A DNA stretch of 45,141 nt from Rhodobiaceae bacterium. GTDB taxonomy: Bacteria; Pseudomonadota; Alphaproteobacteria; RS24. Every line of letters begins with the position of its first letter. Position 1 is the stretch's first letter. Positions 30,554 to 38,532 of the stretch are shown one piece after another. The DNA is taken from assembly GCA_002721725.1 (NCBI GenBank), contig PBLK01000010.1:1-45141 (forward strand), written 5' to 3'. The position numbers and the translations under genes are program-made. A model generated the notes under the pieces. That model did no database searches. It was not told the DNA's origin and worked only from the letters and a program-made list of their open reading frames with translations.

Positions 30554-32788
30554 ATGTGGAAAAAACAAATTGCCACCAGCCTTGTGGCACTTTTTATCAG
30601 CACTGTCGGGCTTTATGTTTTTGCAGCCTATGATGACTGGTTCGGCCAGCCGCGTGGCAGCGGTCAAATTACCGGCGGCGAGCGCAGCGATGTTCTTACA
30701 AATGCCTTGGCGGCGGAGCAAGCGGCAATTGCGCGCGGCATGAACGAGCCCCCTGATAAACAAATTCTTTTCGGCGATTTGCACGTTCACACCACTTTCT
30801 CGACCGATGCCTTTTTATGGTCGCTGCCGATTTATGGAGGTGAGGGAGCGCACCCTCTGGCCGATGCGTGTGACTATGCCCGGCATTGTTCGGCGCTTGA
30901 TTTCTGGTCCATCACCGACCATGCCGAGGTGGCCACGCCTAGACGATGGGAGCAAACCAAACAGAGCATTCGCGCCTGTAATGCCATTTCAAGCAATGGT
31001 GAAAAGCCTGATATGGTCAGCTTTGTTGGCTTTGAATGGACGCAGGTGGGCCAGGTTCCGGAAGATCATTTTGGTCATAAAAACGTTATCTTCAAGGGCC
31101 TTGATGATTCTGAATTGGCCAAACGACCGATTGCATCGGGCGGTGTGGCGGTCAATACGCTGCGCACCAATGGAAAAGATTTGATACCTTTGCCGCTGGC
31201 TTTTAGTGACTTTAGAGGCCGACAAACATATTTTGATATCCGTCGCTTCCTGCAAGAGGCAGCCGAGGTTAGATTGTGCGACCCCAATGCTCCGATTACC
31301 GATTTGCCCGCGTCTTGTTTCGAGGTTGCTGAAACGCCAGGCGCGCTGGTTGACAGTCTGGAAGCCCAAGAGCTTGATCCGCTCATTATTCCACATGGAA
31401 CAACTTGGGGCTTTTACACGCCGGTAGGGGTGAATTTCGACAAGCATCTAAAGGCGGAAAACCGGCCCGAGAAAATGGAGCTGGTTGAAGTCATGTCGGG
31501 GCATGGCAATTCGGAGGAATATCGTTCTTTCCGTGGTGCCATTAATATCGATAGCGATGCTCTAACAGCGGATTGCCCCGTGCCAACGATTGATTATCTG
31601 CCTATGTGCTGGCGCGCTGGCGAGATTATCAAAGAGCGTTGCTTGATCGACGGCGATGATGTGGCTGAATGTGAAGTGCGTGCAAAACGAACGCGAGATA
31701 TTGCCGCCGTGTTTAGTGTCGCGGCCCATCTGTCAGTTCCCGGTACACACATTGAAGAATGGCTCGATGCGGGGCAGTGTCGCGATTGCTTTCTGCCAAG
31801 TTTCGGCTATCGCCCAGGTAATAGCGTGCAATATGCTCTGGCCATTCGAAACTTTGATGATCCGAATGCGCCAACCCGCCTGAATTGGGGTTTTATCGCG
31901 TCAAGCGACAATCACCGTGCCCGCCCCGGAACGGGCTATAAAAACGTTGACCGCACGCGCACAACAGAGGCGGTGCATCTGGAAGAAGAATGGCGCAAGC
32001 GGGTCTTCCCGAAGGGTAACAAAGCCAGCGAGCCACTGGTTCTGGATCGAGCTGAATTGATGGAGCGTGGTTTTGGTGCAACAGAACAAGAGCGGCAAGC
32101 CAGTTTTTGGACAACTGGCGGCCTTGCTGCCGTGCATGCCGAAGGGCGCACGCGCGAAGAAATATTTGAAGCCATAAAACGCCGCGAGACTTATGGCACG
32201 AGCGGCCCGCGCATTTTGCTTTGGTTCAATACCAAAGATGGTGTGCCGATGGGCGGCACGACCAAGCGCAGTGGCTCACCCATTTTCGAGGTGAAAGCGG
32301 TTGGTGCGCATAAGCAAAAGCAGGGCTGCGCCGATGAAACGGTGGCGGCTTTGGGGGCAGAGCGTATCCAAAAACTTTGCGCCAATGAATGCTTCAATCC
32401 ATCCAGTGAGCGCATGAAAATAACCCGGTTTGAAGTGGTGCGCATTCGGCCGCAAGTGAGCCCCGACGAGGCGGTTGAGAAGCTAATTGAAGACCCGTGG
32501 AAGGTCATTCCGTGCAACGATACGGGCAATGGCTGTCAGGCGACCTTCAGCGACCCCGAATTTGCCGGTAGCAATCGCATGGCAACTTACTACGTGCGCG
32601 CCATTCAAGAACCCTCCAAGAAAATCAATGCTGATAATTTACGCTGCACTTATGACGATGAAGGTAATTGTGTCGAGGTTAATATGTGCTATGGCGACGA
32701 CCGCACGCCGCGCGATGATGAGTGCTTGGGCGAGGTTGAAGAGCGTGCTTGGTCGTCGCCTATTTATGTCGAGCACAGCAAAGAGTGA
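30554..32788 (+). CDS. DUF3604 protein with PHP-like metal motifs, membrane-anchored or exported
   Basis: 744-residue protein with an N-terminal hydrophobic helix (about 6-25) serving as signal or anchor, so the bulk is probably periplasmic. It matches the DUF3604 family, distantly related to PHP metal-dependent phosphoesterases: FGDLHVHTTFSTDA at 73-86 with His77 and His79, and DFWSITDHAE with Asp122-His123, both typical of PHP metal sites. WGFIASSDNHRARPGTGY later in the chain is another His/Asp motif. Many Cys residues (for example CRDCF, CADE, CANEC) suggest disulfides. Substrate and role are not known. Transcribed alone from a promoter with a triple operator; a terminator lies 160 bases past the stop. 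Confidence 0.83.
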   Translation: MWKKQIATSLVALFISTVGLYVFAAYDDWFGQPRGSGQITGGERSDVLTNALAAEQAAIARGMNEPPDKQILFGDLHVHTTFSTDAFLWSLPIYGGEGAHPLADACDYARHCSALDFWSITDHAEVATPRRWEQTKQSIRACNAISSNGEKPDMVSFVGFEWTQVGQVPEDHFGHKNVIFKGLDDSELAKRPIASGGVAVNTLRTNGKDLIPLPLAFSDFRGRQTYFDIRRFLQEAAEVRLCDPNAPITDLPASCFEVAETPGALVDSLEAQELDPLIIPHGTTWGFYTPVGVNFDKHLKAENRPEKMELVEVMSGHGNSEEYRSFRGAINIDSDALTADCPVPTIDYLPMCWRAGEIIKERCLIDGDDVAECEVRAKRTRDIAAVFSVAAHLSVPGTHIEEWLDAGQCRDCFLPSFGYRPGNSVQYALAIRNFDDPNAPTRLNWGFIASSDNHRARPGTGYKNVDRTRTTEAVHLEEEWRKRVFPKGNKASEPLVLDRAELMERGFGATEQERQASFWTTGGLAAVHAEGRTREEIFEAIKRRETYGTSGPRILLWFNTKDGVPMGGTTKRSGSPIFEVKAVGAHKQKQGCADETVAALGAERIQKLCANECFNPSSERMKITRFEVVRIRPQVSPDEAVEKLIEDPWKVIPCNDTGNGCQATFSDPEFAGSNRMATYYVRAIQEPSKKINADNLRCTYDDEGNCVEVNMCYGDDRTPRDDECLGEVEERAWSSPIYVEHSKE

Positions 32789-32859
32789 GGGGGTGGCACG
32801 CATGCAAAAACAAATCGATCAGATTCTGGGTGTTGTTCACTCTGGCTCGCTCTCCGGCT
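32789..32859. other. Non-coding stretch between the DUF3604 gene and the tRNA-Ser remnant
   Basis: About 70 bases with no supported gene; an open frame here (to 32876) is a shadow continuing from the DUF3604 region. It marks the left flank of the suspected island. Confidence 0.4.
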
Positions 32860-32919
32860 TGGCCGCGGAGGTTTGAATCCTCGGTACGCGCAAGCGCTCA
32901 ACAGTTGTCAGGACTGCTA
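32860..32919 (-). pseudogene. Degenerate tRNA-Ser(UGA) fragment, 3' half
   Basis: Minus-strand sequence matches the intact tRNA-Ser at 37363-37452 in the anticodon arm, long variable arm and part of the T arm. The variable arm GAGCGCTTGCGCGTACC compares with GAGCGTTTGCGCGTTCC. The anticodon arm is GCAGT-CCTGACA-ACTGT against GCGGT-CTTGAAA-ACCGT, still with TGA as anticodon. Over roughly 37 aligned bases I count about six or seven differences. The D arm and acceptor stem are not recognisable and the T stem is shortened, so it cannot be a working tRNA. It has the same orientation as the intact gene and could be a decayed attachment-site copy. Confidence 0.7.
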
Positions 32920-32947
32920 ACTTAAAGGGGCCGCACATCATAAATTG

Positions 32948-32972
32948 GCTTAGACGTCTCCTGAGCTTTTTT
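32948..32972 (+). terminator. Terminator for the DUF3604 transcript
   Basis: Stem GCTTAG/CTGAGC (one wobble) with a 7-base loop followed by TTTTTT on the plus strand. It ends inside the stop codon of the convergent small secreted gene at 32971. Confidence 0.65.
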
Positions 32973-33315
32973 AATTGTTACATTTTACTGTGCCAGATGC
33001 AGAACCTGTTACAAAAATATATGCCTTAAATGGAGATACTTTGCGAATATCCAACTGAGCCTCTGTATCGGGCGTTAGCGTCAGAACTGAACCGAGCATG
33101 ACACCCGGAAGCAAATCTAATTCGTATTTCAGCTTGGCTTCTGCGGTTTCGCCAATTCCTACACTCGTTATATCACCGTCGGATAGAGGTGCATTAAATG
33201 TAAGGACGAGTGTATCTGGCGAGCACAAGGCACTTTGTAACGAAGCAGCCTTTACCGTTGAAATGGATGTCAATATTAGCGCTGCCAGGGTCAAAATCTT
33301 GTTGTTCGTTTTCAT
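32971..33315 (-). CDS. Small secreted protein A of the island, function unknown
   Basis: 114-residue product with a signal peptide (LILTSISTVKA|ASL). The mature chain is mostly predicted beta strands, with one Cys near each end (Cys31 in SALCSPDTLVLTFNA and Cys112 in GTVKCNN), suggesting one disulfide closing a small domain. It shares the opening pattern SxxSAxCS-TxxxTFNA and the C-terminal Cys with the next gene upstream, so the two are tandem paralogues. Strong AGGAGG ribosome binding site. Last gene of the island operon; no named family recognised. Confidence 0.7.
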   Translation of the reverse strand: MKTNNKILTLAALILTSISTVKAASLQSALCSPDTLVLTFNAPLSDGDITSVGIGETAEAKLKYELDLLPGVMLGSVLTLTPDTEAQLDIRKVSPFKAYIFVTGSASGTVKCNN

Positions 33316-33324
33316 TTAGGCCTC

Positions 33325-33726
33325 CTATTGGCACAAAACTGAAGAGGTAATATCTGATGCAGTGGCAGAGATAGACAACGGCCATATGTCCCAATTATTT
33401 ATGTCTCGGTAGTTTTCCAGGGTCGGGTAAACCGTGTAAACAGTATTTCCCGAACTCCACTCCCCGCCAACTGTATCAAGAGCGACCTTGTCAGACTCGG
33501 AAGATGAAGCAGCAGTTTTCTTAAAGCTCAGAGCTGACAACGCCGAATTATCCGTCTGTTCACTATCAGTCGTTGCTGTAACCGCATCTACTGCTGCATT
33601 AAATGTCACAATGACAGTGGGCGATGAGCAAGCGGCCGATACTATTGATTGTGCATGAGCAATCTGTAAGGAAGCAATAATTATTGCTGCGCCGCCCCAA
33701 AAAGATGTCTTTACTGATTTTCTCAT
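33325..33726 (-). CDS. Small secreted protein B of the island, paralogue of A
   Basis: 133 residues with a signal peptide (IIIASLQIAHA|QSI), then SAACSSPTVIVTFNAAV and a Ser/Thr/Asp-rich middle, ending SSVLCQ. Cys33 and Cys132 bracket the mature domain as in protein A. Start chosen at 33726, preceded by GGAGGAAATT; the frame is open 17 codons upstream into the lectin gene end, without a better site. It begins 13 bases after the lectin-like gene stop, so it is cotranscribed. It may be a secreted partner or subunit of the lectin-like protein; that is inference. Confidence 0.7.
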   Translation of the reverse strand: MRKSVKTSFWGGAAIIIASLQIAHAQSIVSAACSSPTVIVTFNAAVDAVTATTDSEQTDNSALSALSFKKTAASSSESDKVALDTVGGEWSSGNTVYTVYPTLENYRDINNWDIWPLSISATASDITSSVLCQ

Positions 33727-33739
33727 AATTTCCTCCAAA

Positions 33740-35908
33740 TCACCGATGGGTACAAAATTGCCCTTCGGTTGACACATTGTAAGTTTTCACCTCTGTAAGA
33801 TCGAGTGCTCCGCCGCCTACCTGTCCATAAATGGCGTCATTTCTAGGACCACCCCATTCAACGATATACCCATGAATTCGATTGTCTGTGACCTTATAGT
33901 CGTTCCATTTACCGTGACCGTAAACATGCAACATGTGTTCGTTTCGGCAGTTATTCGGCTCGAGCCTATTAAAGTTTTCATACGCCCCATCGTGAGGCGT
34001 AAAATTTTTGCCAGTTCTGCAGCCGCTATTATTGTCGGTTCCGATCGGAGTTCCACGTTCGGGCCCAGTGACCCAAACCCACTTACTTTCCCCCCGCCAA
34101 GAATTTGAAAAAGGCTTGCCATCCGTCCGATCCAAGTTGTCATCGAATTCGTCGTCGGCGACATCGCACCAGCCCCTCACATTAGAATTGTGAAGATGAT
34201 CACATCCGCCAATCCAACCCTGGCCTTGAATTTTAGGCTGAATATATAATTGCTCAGCACCAGAGGTAATGGTCGCTAGATAAGGTTTTAAACCAAACAG
34301 GTAATGGATATCAGACGGGTTTGAATAGCTATTATCGTTTACGTCATCCATAACAACATGAAAATCTACTTTTCTATCTGGAAAATATTCATAAAAATGC
34401 CAGCCACCTGTCTCAGGATGTAAGAAAGGAACTTTATTGCTCATTGAGAAAATGAGGCTGCGGTTCGTCTGCCCAATGGCTCCGGTCGAGTTGTAGATAA
34501 AACCAACCTTTTTAAAAATATTGACCCAGTTTGCCTCGCTGGTTGTTCCATAAAAGCGAAGAATACCTGAACTAGACGAGTATGTGGCGGTAATTCCTGA
34601 ATATCCAAAATTTGAGTAGCTTTTGCCATTCGCCGTTGACCTTGATGTCGCCCCCTTAACAAATAATAAATCCTTAGAATTATGATTTCCCGATATTGTA
34701 ACGGCAGCTCCCGAAATATTGCCAGCTGAGCCTGCATTAAAATCAGAGGCCGATATGCCGTTATTGACTACGCAACCCTCTTCATTGGTCACGGTCACTG
34801 TCAAATTGTTCAGCGTCTCGGCAAGGCCATAGGAATTCTCGTTGTTATCGGTAACCGTAACGGTGATATTATATGTTCCGGCATCAAGGTCGTGAATGTC
34901 ATCAACTCCAGAGGCGCCCGTATTAACAACAATATGACCATCGGGGTCTACCGTGAAAGGGTTGTCTGGATCACTGGCCGACCAGCTGGTCGGCCCCTTT
35001 GACACGGTAACAGCGAAGGTCACATTATTTTGCGCGGACGAGCAACCGCTCCCACCTCGCACTTTACACGATCCGTCATAGACGATGAGTGCGCTAGTTT
35101 GAGGTGTATTGTGGGCACCATCAAGTGTTAAAGATGATGGCGCTATTATTTGAGGCGGATTAACAACCCAGCCATTCCCGGCCGAAATTGCCGAATTAAT
35201 TTCACTGGCGGAAGGGTTTCCCCCTAGTGCTGCAAGTTCCTGCAAATAAGCACTTGCAAACAGGCCCGGGTCGCCAGCTGGCTGGATGACTGTAGCCGTT
35301 ATATTGGGATCAATAGCTAAAAGCGCCACAATTTCTGCGTTTTCAATTGAACCGTCATGATTGGTGTCGAAAAGCTGCAAATTATTGTCGACAACGGCTG
35401 TTGTTGCGGTATCAGCCGCATCTATAGTCTGGGCTAGGTTGGAGAGCGCAGACGAACCAGCATCTGAGAGGGACGTGCTTACGAAATTTTGCGCTGCTGA
35501 TGCCGCGCCTGCAAGGCAGGCATCGTCAACGATTCCGCAGGCATCAAGATGTTCCAGTATAAAAATAGCTTGCTCGGAAGATACCCCATTAAAGTTAGCC
35601 CCATATGACCAGCTCAGCGTATTATTTACTTCAGAGCATTCAAGCAAGCCGTCGGCATTTGCATCCATGAAAAAGATTGCTTCTGGAAAAATATTGGCAG
35701 AGCAATCCGCTTTTAGTTGGTTAATTGTCGAACTTAGATCAGCGGAAGGAACGTTTTCATAGCTGGCTAGACCATGAACAAAACTATTAGCTGATCCAGT
35801 TTCAAAAGCGCCCGTCCCGTATTCCGACGTTGAGAATTGTGCTCTTGCGGCGAAGCTTAAAGCTAGGGCGAACCCAAGTATCACTAAAGAAAACCGAAAT
35901 GAATTCAT
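33740..35908 (-). CDS. Large secreted protein with EF-hands, cadherin-like region and C-type lectin-like domain
   Basis: 722 residues, exported (signal peptide 1-23, LALSFAARA|QFS). Two textbook EF-hand loops are present, DANADGLLECSE (82-93) and DTNHDGSIENAE (181-192), so calcium binding is likely. Residues about 255-375 look cadherin/Ig-like (TYNITVTVTDNNENSYG), and about 380-495 resembles the bacterial module that often precedes lectin-like domains. From about 540, a C-type lectin-like domain follows: YLATITSGAEQLYI, GWIGGCDH, KWVWVTG, EPN at 650-652, KWNDY at 667-671 and GYIVEWGG. EPN and WND are the calcium and sugar-binding motifs of mannose-type lectins. Visibly more AT-rich than its flanks. 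Probable surface adhesin or carbohydrate-binding protein; the ligand is unknown. Confidence 0.8.
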   Translation of the reverse strand: MNSFRFSLVILGFALALSFAARAQFSTSEYGTGAFETGSANSFVHGLASYENVPSADLSSTINQLKADCSANIFPEAIFFMDANADGLLECSEVNNTLSWSYGANFNGVSSEQAIFILEHLDACGIVDDACLAGAASAAQNFVSTSLSDAGSSALSNLAQTIDAADTATTAVVDNNLQLFDTNHDGSIENAEIVALLAIDPNITATVIQPAGDPGLFASAYLQELAALGGNPSASEINSAISAGNGWVVNPPQIIAPSSLTLDGAHNTPQTSALIVYDGSCKVRGGSGCSSAQNNVTFAVTVSKGPTSWSASDPDNPFTVDPDGHIVVNTGASGVDDIHDLDAGTYNITVTVTDNNENSYGLAETLNNLTVTVTNEEGCVVNNGISASDFNAGSAGNISGAAVTISGNHNSKDLLFVKGATSRSTANGKSYSNFGYSGITATYSSSSGILRFYGTTSEANWVNIFKKVGFIYNSTGAIGQTNRSLIFSMSNKVPFLHPETGGWHFYEYFPDRKVDFHVVMDDVNDNSYSNPSDIHYLFGLKPYLATITSGAEQLYIQPKIQGQGWIGGCDHLHNSNVRGWCDVADDEFDDNLDRTDGKPFSNSWRGESKWVWVTGPERGTPIGTDNNSGCRTGKNFTPHDGAYENFNRLEPNNCRNEHMLHVYGHGKWNDYKVTDNRIHGYIVEWGGPRNDAIYGQVGGGALDLTEVKTYNVSTEGQFCTHR

Positions 35909-35923
35909 TTTAAATTCTCTATT

Positions 35924-36580
35924 TTAAGTTTGCGGAGTATTAGGAGTTGGGCACAAGTTAGGGTTATTTTTCAAGAAATTTTTTTGGCAATTTAGTGGAT
36001 CAGGATCAATAGAACAAAAGTCAGTAACATCAGTAGTATTGCAATAATCTTGATTGGAGCAGACGCATGTATAAATCTTGTAGTCGCCTTGCTTGAGAGA
36101 TGCAGAGCTATTCGCGCAAGCCACCATAACCATTCCTCGCGGTACGGAAATTACAGTTGCTGAAGCTGATGTAAAAGCACTCTTGAACCCGCATCCATCC
36201 AGCAAACCAGTTGAGGCATTTTTTATCACGCCAGGCCAATTAAGTGCTAAATTTCCGTTAAAGCCGCGTGGGCAGCTAGAATTAGCTGGGCTTTTCCCCT
36301 TCTGCACGACATTCATTTCATTTAGTATTTTTGAAACTTGGGTGCCGCAGCTAGTGGTGGCGGTTACACCCCTATTAATCTCACTAGGGCCGCCCCCGCC
36401 TTCGGTAATTAGTAAATTGTCCACATTGATAGCTCGTGCAACAGCAGTTTGGTTTGCTTTAGTTGCCTCGTCTTGCGTGGCTTCTAGGTATCCTTGATAG
36501 CCGACTGTTCCAATGGCCGCCAAAAGGCCAATGATTGCGACAACCGTTAGTAATTCAATAAGTGAAAAACCCGACCGCAT
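35924..36580 (-). CDS. Type IV prepilin-like protein with ten cysteines
   Basis: 218 residues beginning MRSG|FSLIELLTVVAIIGLLAAIGTVGYQGYLEA: a very short prepilin leader with Gly at -1, Phe at +1 and Glu at +5, then the N-terminal pilin helix, so processing by a PilD-type prepilin peptidase is expected. The globular part has ten Cys (including CVCSNQDYC), unusual for pilins, which generally have two to four. The frame extends only to a TTG upstream; ATG at 36580 with GGGA is chosen. No assembly ATPase, platform protein or secretin gene is present in the window, so it must use machinery encoded elsewhere. 15 bases separate it from the lectin-like gene. Confidence 0.82.
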   Translation of the reverse strand: MRSGFSLIELLTVVAIIGLLAAIGTVGYQGYLEATQDEATKANQTAVARAINVDNLLITEGGGGPSEINRGVTATTSCGTQVSKILNEMNVVQKGKSPANSSCPRGFNGNLALNWPGVIKNASTGLLDGCGFKSAFTSASATVISVPRGMVMVACANSSASLKQGDYKIYTCVCSNQDYCNTTDVTDFCSIDPDPLNCQKNFLKNNPNLCPTPNTPQT

Positions 36581-36691
36581 ATAAAATCCCAATTAGTAAA
36601 AGAAAGTTAGCCAAATGCGCGTCGGGCCTCAATCATTTTCTTGGATGTTAAAGCTGTATCAAATTGGGCTTTACACTGATCAATCTGTAAA

Positions 36692-37300
36692 TCACCGAGG
36701 CAAGATATATTTCAGCCTATCAACTACTCCCGCTCGACGGCCGACACTTTTTTCTAGAAAGTTCAGGTTCTCGCTGGAGTGATGATTAAGACCTTTTCCG
36801 CTCAAACGATCAATTTGACCAGATGAATTAATCACGCGAGGAGAATGATATGCCGCTCTTTGCATTTCAGTTTCACTGCTGGTTTCAATAAGGATGCGTC
36901 CGTAGCAACAACAAGTGCAAGTGCGGTTTTTTTCTTCATCCAATTCTGTATATAAGGCAGTACCTCGAATAGCTATTGTAGCATGACGGGTTATCACGGC
37001 GCGCTCCGCCACCGCTTCGGGATCAAAAACCGAATGCAAAGCGCCTTGAAGCAGATGGACGACTCGCACGGCCAGTCCATCATCAACCCTAAAGTTAGCC
37101 TTTGTGTTTGGAGCAAAAAGAAACGCACATTTTCCGAGCCGAAGAGCAGAATATGTACCTGGCGTCTGAACTATTATTTCACTTTCACCAATATCCAAAT
37201 CCAACTCACCCAATAAAACCTCAAGGTTATTTGCTTGGGCAGACAAAATACCCGCCAACGTTGTGGACAAGCAGCCTAACAAAAACTTTCTTCGATGCAA
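36692..37300 (-). CDS. FecR-domain-like exported protein with a CTCCCYG cysteine cluster
   Basis: 202-residue product with an Arg-Arg signal-like N-terminus (MHRRKFLLGCLSTTLAGILSAQA), possibly Tat-directed or a lipoprotein-like signal. The middle resembles FecR-type domains: TPGTYSALRLGKCAFLFAPNTKANF and HATIAIRGTALYTELDEEK. RTCTCCCYG follows, comparable to the CTCYG motif of a subgroup of FecR-like proteins but with extra Cys. It starts with TTG at 37300, preceded by TAAGGTAAA; no ATG is available nearby. It is the first gene of the island, about 60 bases from the tRNA-Ser 3' end. Role unknown; no sigma factor or TonB receptor partner is adjacent. Confidence 0.65.
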   Translation of the reverse strand: MHRRKFLLGCLSTTLAGILSAQANNLEVLLGELDLDIGESEIIVQTPGTYSALRLGKCAFLFAPNTKANFRVDDGLAVRVVHLLQGALHSVFDPEAVAERAVITRHATIAIRGTALYTELDEEKNRTCTCCCYGRILIETSSETEMQRAAYHSPRVINSSGQIDRLSGKGLNHHSSENLNFLEKSVGRRAGVVDRLKYILPR

Positions 37301-37362
37301 TTTACCTTACCCCTAAAAAGATACTCCAAACCCTGCGTTGCCTGCCGAGGTTTTTGGAATTT

Positions 37363-37452
37363 TGGCGGAGGGGGAGGGATTCGAACCCCCGGAACGCGCA
37401 AACGCTCAACGGTTTTCAAGACCGCCGCTTTCAACCACTCAGCCACCCCTCC
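37363..37452 (-). tRNA. tRNA-Ser(UGA)
   Basis: 90-base class II tRNA. Acceptor stem GGAGGGG (37446-37452) pairs with CCCCTCC, then discriminator G and encoded CCA (37363-37365). The D arm has GGCTGAGTGGTTGAAAGC, the anticodon loop is CTTGAAA (anticodon TGA), a long variable arm GAGCGTTTGCGCGTT follows, and the T loop is TTCGAAT. The layout is close to E. coli tRNA-Ser(UGA). It borders the AT-rich island at its 3' end, the usual side for integration. Confidence 0.96.
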
Positions 37453-37647: not shown

Positions 37648-38532
37648 ATGAGGCAGAGGATTTTAACATTTCAACTTGGTTTTGTTGCCTTGCTGGTTGT
37701 CGGCTGCTCGTCGCTTTCTGACCGGCGCGCTGCGGAAGAGCAGGGGCGGCGCGTCGCCGCCGGTGGTATTTACAAAATCGGCACGCCCTATGAAATTCAG
37801 GGCGAATGGTATTACCCGCAAGAAGACGCGACTTATGACAATTCCGGTATTGCCTCTTGGTATGGCCCGAAATTCCATGGGCGGCGCACCGCCAATGGCG
37901 AAATTTTTGATATGGATTTGCTGACCGCCGCGCATCCGACCTTGCCTATGCCGGTGCGCGCCAAAGTGACCAATTTGGAAAATGGGCGCTCAGTGGTGGT
38001 GCGGATTAATGATCGTGGACCATTTGCCAAAAACCGCGAAATAGACATGTCGCGCCATGCTGCGGACCTTTTAGGGTTTAAGGAAAAAGGCACGGCGAAA
38101 GTGCGGGTGCAATATCTCGGTCGTGCACCACTTTATGACAGCACCGGTCGGCTAATTAAACGACAAGAGCCGGATCGCTTCATTGCCGATAAGCCGGTGA
38201 CACCAAAAGAAGACAGCAAAGTTGCCGCCGCGCCGGTCGCGCCTGTCGATGTGCGTTCATCTGACGGCAAGCGTTTGGTCAAGCCGGTGCCCGATGTGGA
38301 AGAAAAACGTTATGCGGTTCAGGTCGGTGTGTTTTCCCAGCGCAAAAACGCGGTGGCCCTGCAATCGCGCTTAGCGGCATTTGCACCTGTGAAAATCGTC
38401 AAAGTCGAAATGGGCGGTGCGACGCTCTACCGCGTGAAAATGGGCGGTGCCAATATTCGCGCCGATGCGCGATTGACGCTGGAGAGGCTGGTTGCTGCCG
38501 GTCACACCGATGCGGTGATTATCGAGCAATAG
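37648..38532 (+). CDS. rlpA: Septal ring lytic transglycosylase RlpA (lipoprotein with SPOR domain)
   Basis: 294-residue outer-membrane lipoprotein that cleaves peptidoglycan glycan strands lacking stem peptides, mainly at septa. Lipobox LVVGC gives Cys20 as the lipidated residue. The double-psi beta-barrel domain spans about 70-165 (GIASWYGPKFHGRRTANGE, RINDRGPF with catalytic Asp, REIDMSRHAADLLG). The C-terminal SPOR domain (YAVQVGVFSQRKNAVALQSRLA to the end) binds denuded glycans. First gene of rlpA-dacC-tmk-holB-metG; GGGATAAG before the ATG may be the ribosome binding site. Confidence 0.94.
   Translation: MRQRILTFQLGFVALLVVGCSSLSDRRAAEEQGRRVAAGGIYKIGTPYEIQGEWYYPQEDATYDNSGIASWYGPKFHGRRTANGEIFDMDLLTAAHPTLPMPVRAKVTNLENGRSVVVRINDRGPFAKNREIDMSRHAADLLGFKEKGTAKVRVQYLGRAPLYDSTGRLIKRQEPDRFIADKPVTPKEDSKVAAAPVAPVDVRSSDGKRLVKPVPDVEEKRYAVQVGVFSQRKNAVALQSRLAAFAPVKIVKVEMGGATLYRVKMGGANIRADARLTLERLVAAGHTDAVIIEQ

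Follow-up and report, generated by a model that had tools for sequence, protein, structure and literature searches.

Organization of the locus

In this work we describe a block of ~4.4 kb that lies between a gene encoding a DUF3604 protein and rlpA, within a window of 45,141 nt (the whole stretch of DNA that was analysed), and that holds five minus-strand open reading frames (ORFs), all with signal-like or prepilin N-termini. The block is bounded by an intact tRNA-Ser(UGA) gene on the right and a decayed partial copy in the same orientation on the left (Table 1); reading leftwards from the tRNA, the genes encode a FecR-like protein of 202 aa, a type IV pilin, a 722-aa protein and two small exported proteins. 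Positions 32920-37362 have a GC content of 0.452, compared with 0.525 in the remaining window, and the block genes have a GC3 of 0.38-0.43, compared with 0.51-0.63 in nine flanking genes. No integrase was found among the five ORFs, either in the ORF list or with Pfam and TIGRFAM-type profiles (including TIGR02532). In these respects the original prediction, made from the sequence alone, proved accurate: it had described the intact tRNA, the fragment and its orientation, the AT-rich interval with five genes for exported proteins and the lack of an integrase, and had proposed GC and codon usage as a check; GC and GC3 are both atypical in the block.

Table 1. Features of the locus and coordinates of related loci
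Feature	Position	Strand	Basis and remarks
DUF3604 protein, left flank	30554..32788	+	Pfam DUF3604; orthologues in family
Decayed partial tRNA-Ser copy, anticodon stem to T arm	32867..32917	-	Alignment; putative displaced fragment, left end of block
114-aa exported protein	32971..33315	-	ORF list; resembles 150-aa neighbour
Small exported protein, 150-aa ORF	33325..33777	-	Start probably further in, near 33732
722-aa exported protein	33740..35908	-	Weak EF-hand; by motif only, middle resembles cadherin and C-terminus resembles C-type lectin
Type IV pilin-like protein	35924..36592	-	Pfam N_methyl and TIGR02532, both above cut-off
202-aa exported protein	36692..37300	-	Weak FecR-domain similarity, Pfam E=0.0017, below cut-off
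Intact tRNA-Ser(UGA)	37363..37452	-	ARAGORN; right end of block; putative regenerated target
RlpA (DPBB + SPOR), right flank	37648..38532	+	Domain matches
Deletion joint in G007	L064 626-1097		DUF3604 start and GST-like end
mazG locus	L097 6652-6727; L137 11411-15175; L134 5698-9460; L135 3434-6835		

ARAGORN identifies this tRNA-Ser(TGA) as the single tRNA within the window. Its alignment with the fragment comprises 53 columns, with 42 identities, 9 mismatches (7 transitions and 2 transversions) and 2 gap columns, and reaches a local score of 30, compared with a maximum of 16 among 426 other 105-bp slices of the window; the pair also ranks first among direct repeats of the region (46 nt, 80% identity, spacing 4508). 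Nucleotides 28-80 of the 90 nt of the tRNA are aligned, starting at the anticodon stem and continuing across the variable arm and on into the T arm, and the last 10 nt have no clear match in the fragment, the alignment being internal. The sequence that closes the fragment, CCTCCGCGGCCA, could by eye be a damaged CCTCCG-CCA end. Rfam does not call the fragment as a tRNA, which is unsurprising for a partial copy. A short frame, MQKQIDQILGVVHSGSLSGLAAEV, extends from just past DUF3604 into the fragment (32802-32873); it found no match in relatives and could represent the beginning of a gene disrupted by the insertion.

Foreign DNA joined into the contig through an error of assembly or binning is an extremely improbable source of this arrangement: the assembly is in 26 contigs and about 90% complete, but here conserved genes lie on both flanks within one contig of 65.6 kb, and the end repeats, only 80% alike, are too short for a misjoin.

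Variation of the slot among relatives

The tRNA-Ser adjoining rlpA is kept across the family, in most family loci examined, and over its 90 nt is 100% identical in G002, G007, G008 and G009 and 94-99% identical in other family members. Unlike this junction, the stretch from DUF3604 to tRNA-Ser varies between relatives. G003, G007 and G009 carry neither block nor fragment and have the order DUF3604, GST-like gene (a name given by eye), tRNA-Ser and rlpA, a junction that is pieced together, as the contig is broken in G003 and ends in G009, and G007 has a deletion. Specifically, the GST-like gene directly follows DUF3604 in G003 and runs to the contig end, its tail lies near tRNA-Ser in G009, and in G007 the deletion leaves the DUF3604 start fused to the tail of the GST-like gene, which stops just before tRNA-Ser. 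This gene of the sister species is missing from the slot in the window, with no remains of it between DUF3604 and the fragment past the DUF3604 stop region. Elsewhere in the family, G001 and G010 have both flanks on one contig, separated by ~8-10 kb of other genes, G005 has the same slot module as these two, and G002, G008 and G011 have different genes in the slot.

No counterpart of the decayed copy was found at the DUF3604-flank loci of relatives, and no second full tRNA-Ser, which the original prediction had named as an observation that would weigh against it, was seen at the left site. The comparison of the DUF3604-rlpA junction that it had proposed came out broadly as anticipated, with neither block nor fragment in the three genomes; they do have the GST-like gene, however, which a simple insertion should have preserved in the window. 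We regard the slot between DUF3604 and tRNA-Ser(UGA)-rlpA as a likely tRNA-Ser integration hotspot.

Integrases in a congener and in the same genome

The strongest support for an integrase at the DUF3604 slot comes from G006, in which the 28 nt at the 3' end of tRNA-Ser recur (23/28 identical, ungapped) downstream of DUF3604; all other hits of at least 20/28 in the 1.47 million positions scanned are real tRNA-Ser genes. Located ~160 bp beyond this fragment is a tyrosine integrase ORF with arm-binding, central and catalytic domains. The fragment is oriented as expected with the intact tRNA-Ser off the contig to the right; placement in the slot is from the DUF3604 side only, the right junction being off the contig, and no rlpA was found in G006, whose genome is incomplete.

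The genome to which the window belongs has a phage-type integrase of its own on contig C14, beside tRNA-Ser(GGA), which is similar to that of G006. It is a tyrosine-type protein of 409 aa (L098 10797-12230) in an AT-rich stretch (41-46% GC) that follows the tRNA, and no matching 3' fragment occurs before the end of the stretch read.

Predicted cargo

The pilin has a prepilin cleavage/N-methylation motif, a hydrophobic helix and a conserved Cys, and a family alignment places it in a genus-wide Cys-rich family. The 722-aa protein found no relatives in viral contigs or plasmids; an EPNN...KWND stretch at its C-terminus aligns to mannose-binding protein C (E=0.14, a motif-level likeness), and AlphaFold models of the protein and of its C-terminus are uninformative about the fold (mean pLDDT 32 and 28, respectively). 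The two small exported proteins share 30% identity and have Cys in common. The FecR-like gene has distant matches in just 2 other genomes, with no close match, among 385 genomes of the class, and no relatives in phages. Judging from these sequence features, the cargo is most likely an alternative pilin together with a surface adhesin, served by the cell's own pilus machinery; PilB/PilC-like and PilT/prepilin-peptidase-like genes are present on contigs C2 and C4, as judged from reading their sequences.

A close copy in another genome and the age of the fragment

A scan of a genome collection identified one close copy of the block, in the 2.3 Mb alphaproteobacterial MAG G061, in which 3.36 kb spanning the pilin through the small genes is 84% identical at the DNA level; the sharing begins at the pilin and does not include the FecR-like region. 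Copies of the 722-aa protein and of a small exported protein in L105 are 89% and 88% identical at the amino acid level. Four-fold divergence (JC) is 0.52 for the 722-aa gene, below the 0.78-1.14 of core genes between congeners, although the pilin, at 1.68, has diverged further. MetG of the window finds only partial matches of 25-42% in G061, so that this MAG is probably not a close relative, or else MetG is missing from its bin.

The G061 pilin has upstream of it the 3' half of a tRNA-fMet, recognized by eye, of which that genome yielded no second copy. This half precedes the cassette, a mismatch with the layout of a simple single insertion that could be accounted for by a tandem array or by a free element. 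An extension that we consider rather unlikely is that pilin/lectin cassettes are habitual cargo of tRNA-targeting elements crossing distant Alphaproteobacteria, which would supply small-genome cells with exchangeable pilus and adhesin sets; if true, the association of the cassette with two different tRNA genes (tRNA-Ser in the window, tRNA-fMet in G061) would be its first sign.

With regard to age, the fragment differs from the intact tRNA at 9/51 positions (~0.2 per site), and four-fold divergence from G003/G007 is JC 0.78-0.90 for both lineages together, or ~0.4 per lineage; the former being the smaller value, a neutral copy postdating the G003/G007 split fits and is possible. A piece of a foreign tRNA is also possible; searches of phages, of viral contigs (by exact pattern) and of 385 class genomes returned no closer source than the tRNA-Ser of the genus itself. 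The tRNA-Ser(CGA) of G061 was rejected as a source, matching at 72% over 46 nt, below the genome's own tRNA. Compensatory changes that might mark a foreign functional tRNA amount to one clear anticodon-stem pair (by eye), too few to decide.

Origin of the block

Considering the geometry, the composition, the absence from sister species, the variable slot and the integrase with a tRNA-Ser fragment in a congener, we favour the reading, with a probability of about two in three, that the block is an old, trimmed tRNA-Ser island carrying a pilus/adhesin cassette, possibly through layered events. The close copy that follows half a tRNA-fMet in G061, a fragment divergence low enough for a neutral copy made after the G003/G007 split, and pilus-type genes at other places in the genome also speak for it; the position of that half tRNA upstream of the cassette speaks against it. 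An element would have entered the tRNA-Ser gene at the DUF3604/rlpA hotspot by recombination within the 3' part of that gene, restoring the tRNA on the rlpA side and leaving a 3' fragment on the DUF3604 side, and would have brought in the genes for the type IV pilin, the large cadherin/lectin-like protein, the two small exported proteins and the FecR-like protein. Subsequently the integrase would have been lost, the fragment would have decayed and the GST-like gene would have been deleted. The cell's own type IV pilus machinery would then probably display the alternative pilin together with the surface adhesin. Entry of this particular block by an integrase, the order of these events and the pilus/adhesin function are what we infer.

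The lack of an integrase, a match that ends 10 nt short and the loss of the GST-like gene are consistent with such an island, but a layered history fits them too. In that alternative, which we consider somewhat unlikely, an earlier element left the fragment as its scar, and the block came in afterwards through homologous or illegitimate recombination that replaced the GST-like gene. Rapid turnover of the slot, the replacement of that gene, the strong divergence of the fragment, the integrase-free block and a G061 copy that shares DNA only from the pilin onwards all agree with this scenario; set against it, ~50 bp separate the fragment from the block's last gene, and composition shifts close to the fragment and close to tRNA-Ser. 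For the same three reasons, the statement of the original prediction that the geometry fits exactly was too strong: order and orientation hold, whereas the fragment does not clearly extend to the tRNA 3' end and the integrase and the GST-like gene are missing, so that it was mostly right about the kind of element and too firm in detail.

The principle of tRNA islands is well known, and the block is an added example with pilin/adhesin cargo. Like islands of the Islander type, it has an intact tRNA at one end, a 3'-side fragment in matching orientation at the opposite end, atypical composition and a size of more than 2 kb, and the anticodon stem is where its fragment begins, close to the crossover class centred on the anticodon, the commonest in Islander counts (PMC4383910). 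Unlike them, it lacks an integrase, its strongly diverged fragment does not extend clearly to the 3' end, and the published filters would reject such an integrase-free, internal fragment (PMC4383910). Tycheposons and the flexible genomic islands that streamlined planktonic bacteria carry, as described for Methylophilaceae (PMC10872708), resemble the block in their tRNA-bounded variable cargo and in the presence of a tyrosine recombinase at the slot of a related genome, but most are much larger, and this copy has no recombinase. Our findings document a likely tRNA-Ser hotspot in a small-genome alphaproteobacterial genus with genes for surface structures, a pilin and adhesin-like proteins, among its contents, suggesting that these bacteria exchange surface traits by way of tRNA sites.

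Pilin modules elsewhere in the genus

A module of pilin, large exported protein and small exported protein is also found in several congeners at a locus with mazG and metallo-beta-lactamase-fold genes, names that were assigned from reading the sequences. The window's genome has no room for a module at this locus, G001, G003 and G005 retain pilin remnants, and the pilin/large exported protein module occurs in G009, G010, G011 and G015. Ambiguous bases (X in translations) are plentiful at L097 263-5481 and L110 7512-12000.

The wide occurrence of related pilin modules across the genus would agree with the block being native content lost in sister species, accompanied by a fragment from an unrelated tRNA duplication. 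We consider this quite improbable, however, since a search of 60 relatives returned no match to the 722-aa protein, GC3 is atypical and the sole close copy found belongs to a MAG that is apparently distant. The original prediction had named core genes of ordinary composition in relatives as evidence against it; by these searches neither the 722-aa nor the 202-aa gene is of that kind. Compared with the trimmed island that we favour, the modules at the mazG locus and on contig C13 of the window's own genome are alike in combining a Cys-rich pilin with large and small exported proteins, and C13 shares a FecR domain with the block; they differ in lying at other genomic sites, in large proteins that have no BLAST similarity to the 722-aa protein and in a TPR gene that is absent from the block. 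The stretch of C13 concerned (L109 3560-13129) encodes a cadherin-domain exported protein, a small exported protein, a pilin, a TPR protein and a FecR protein.
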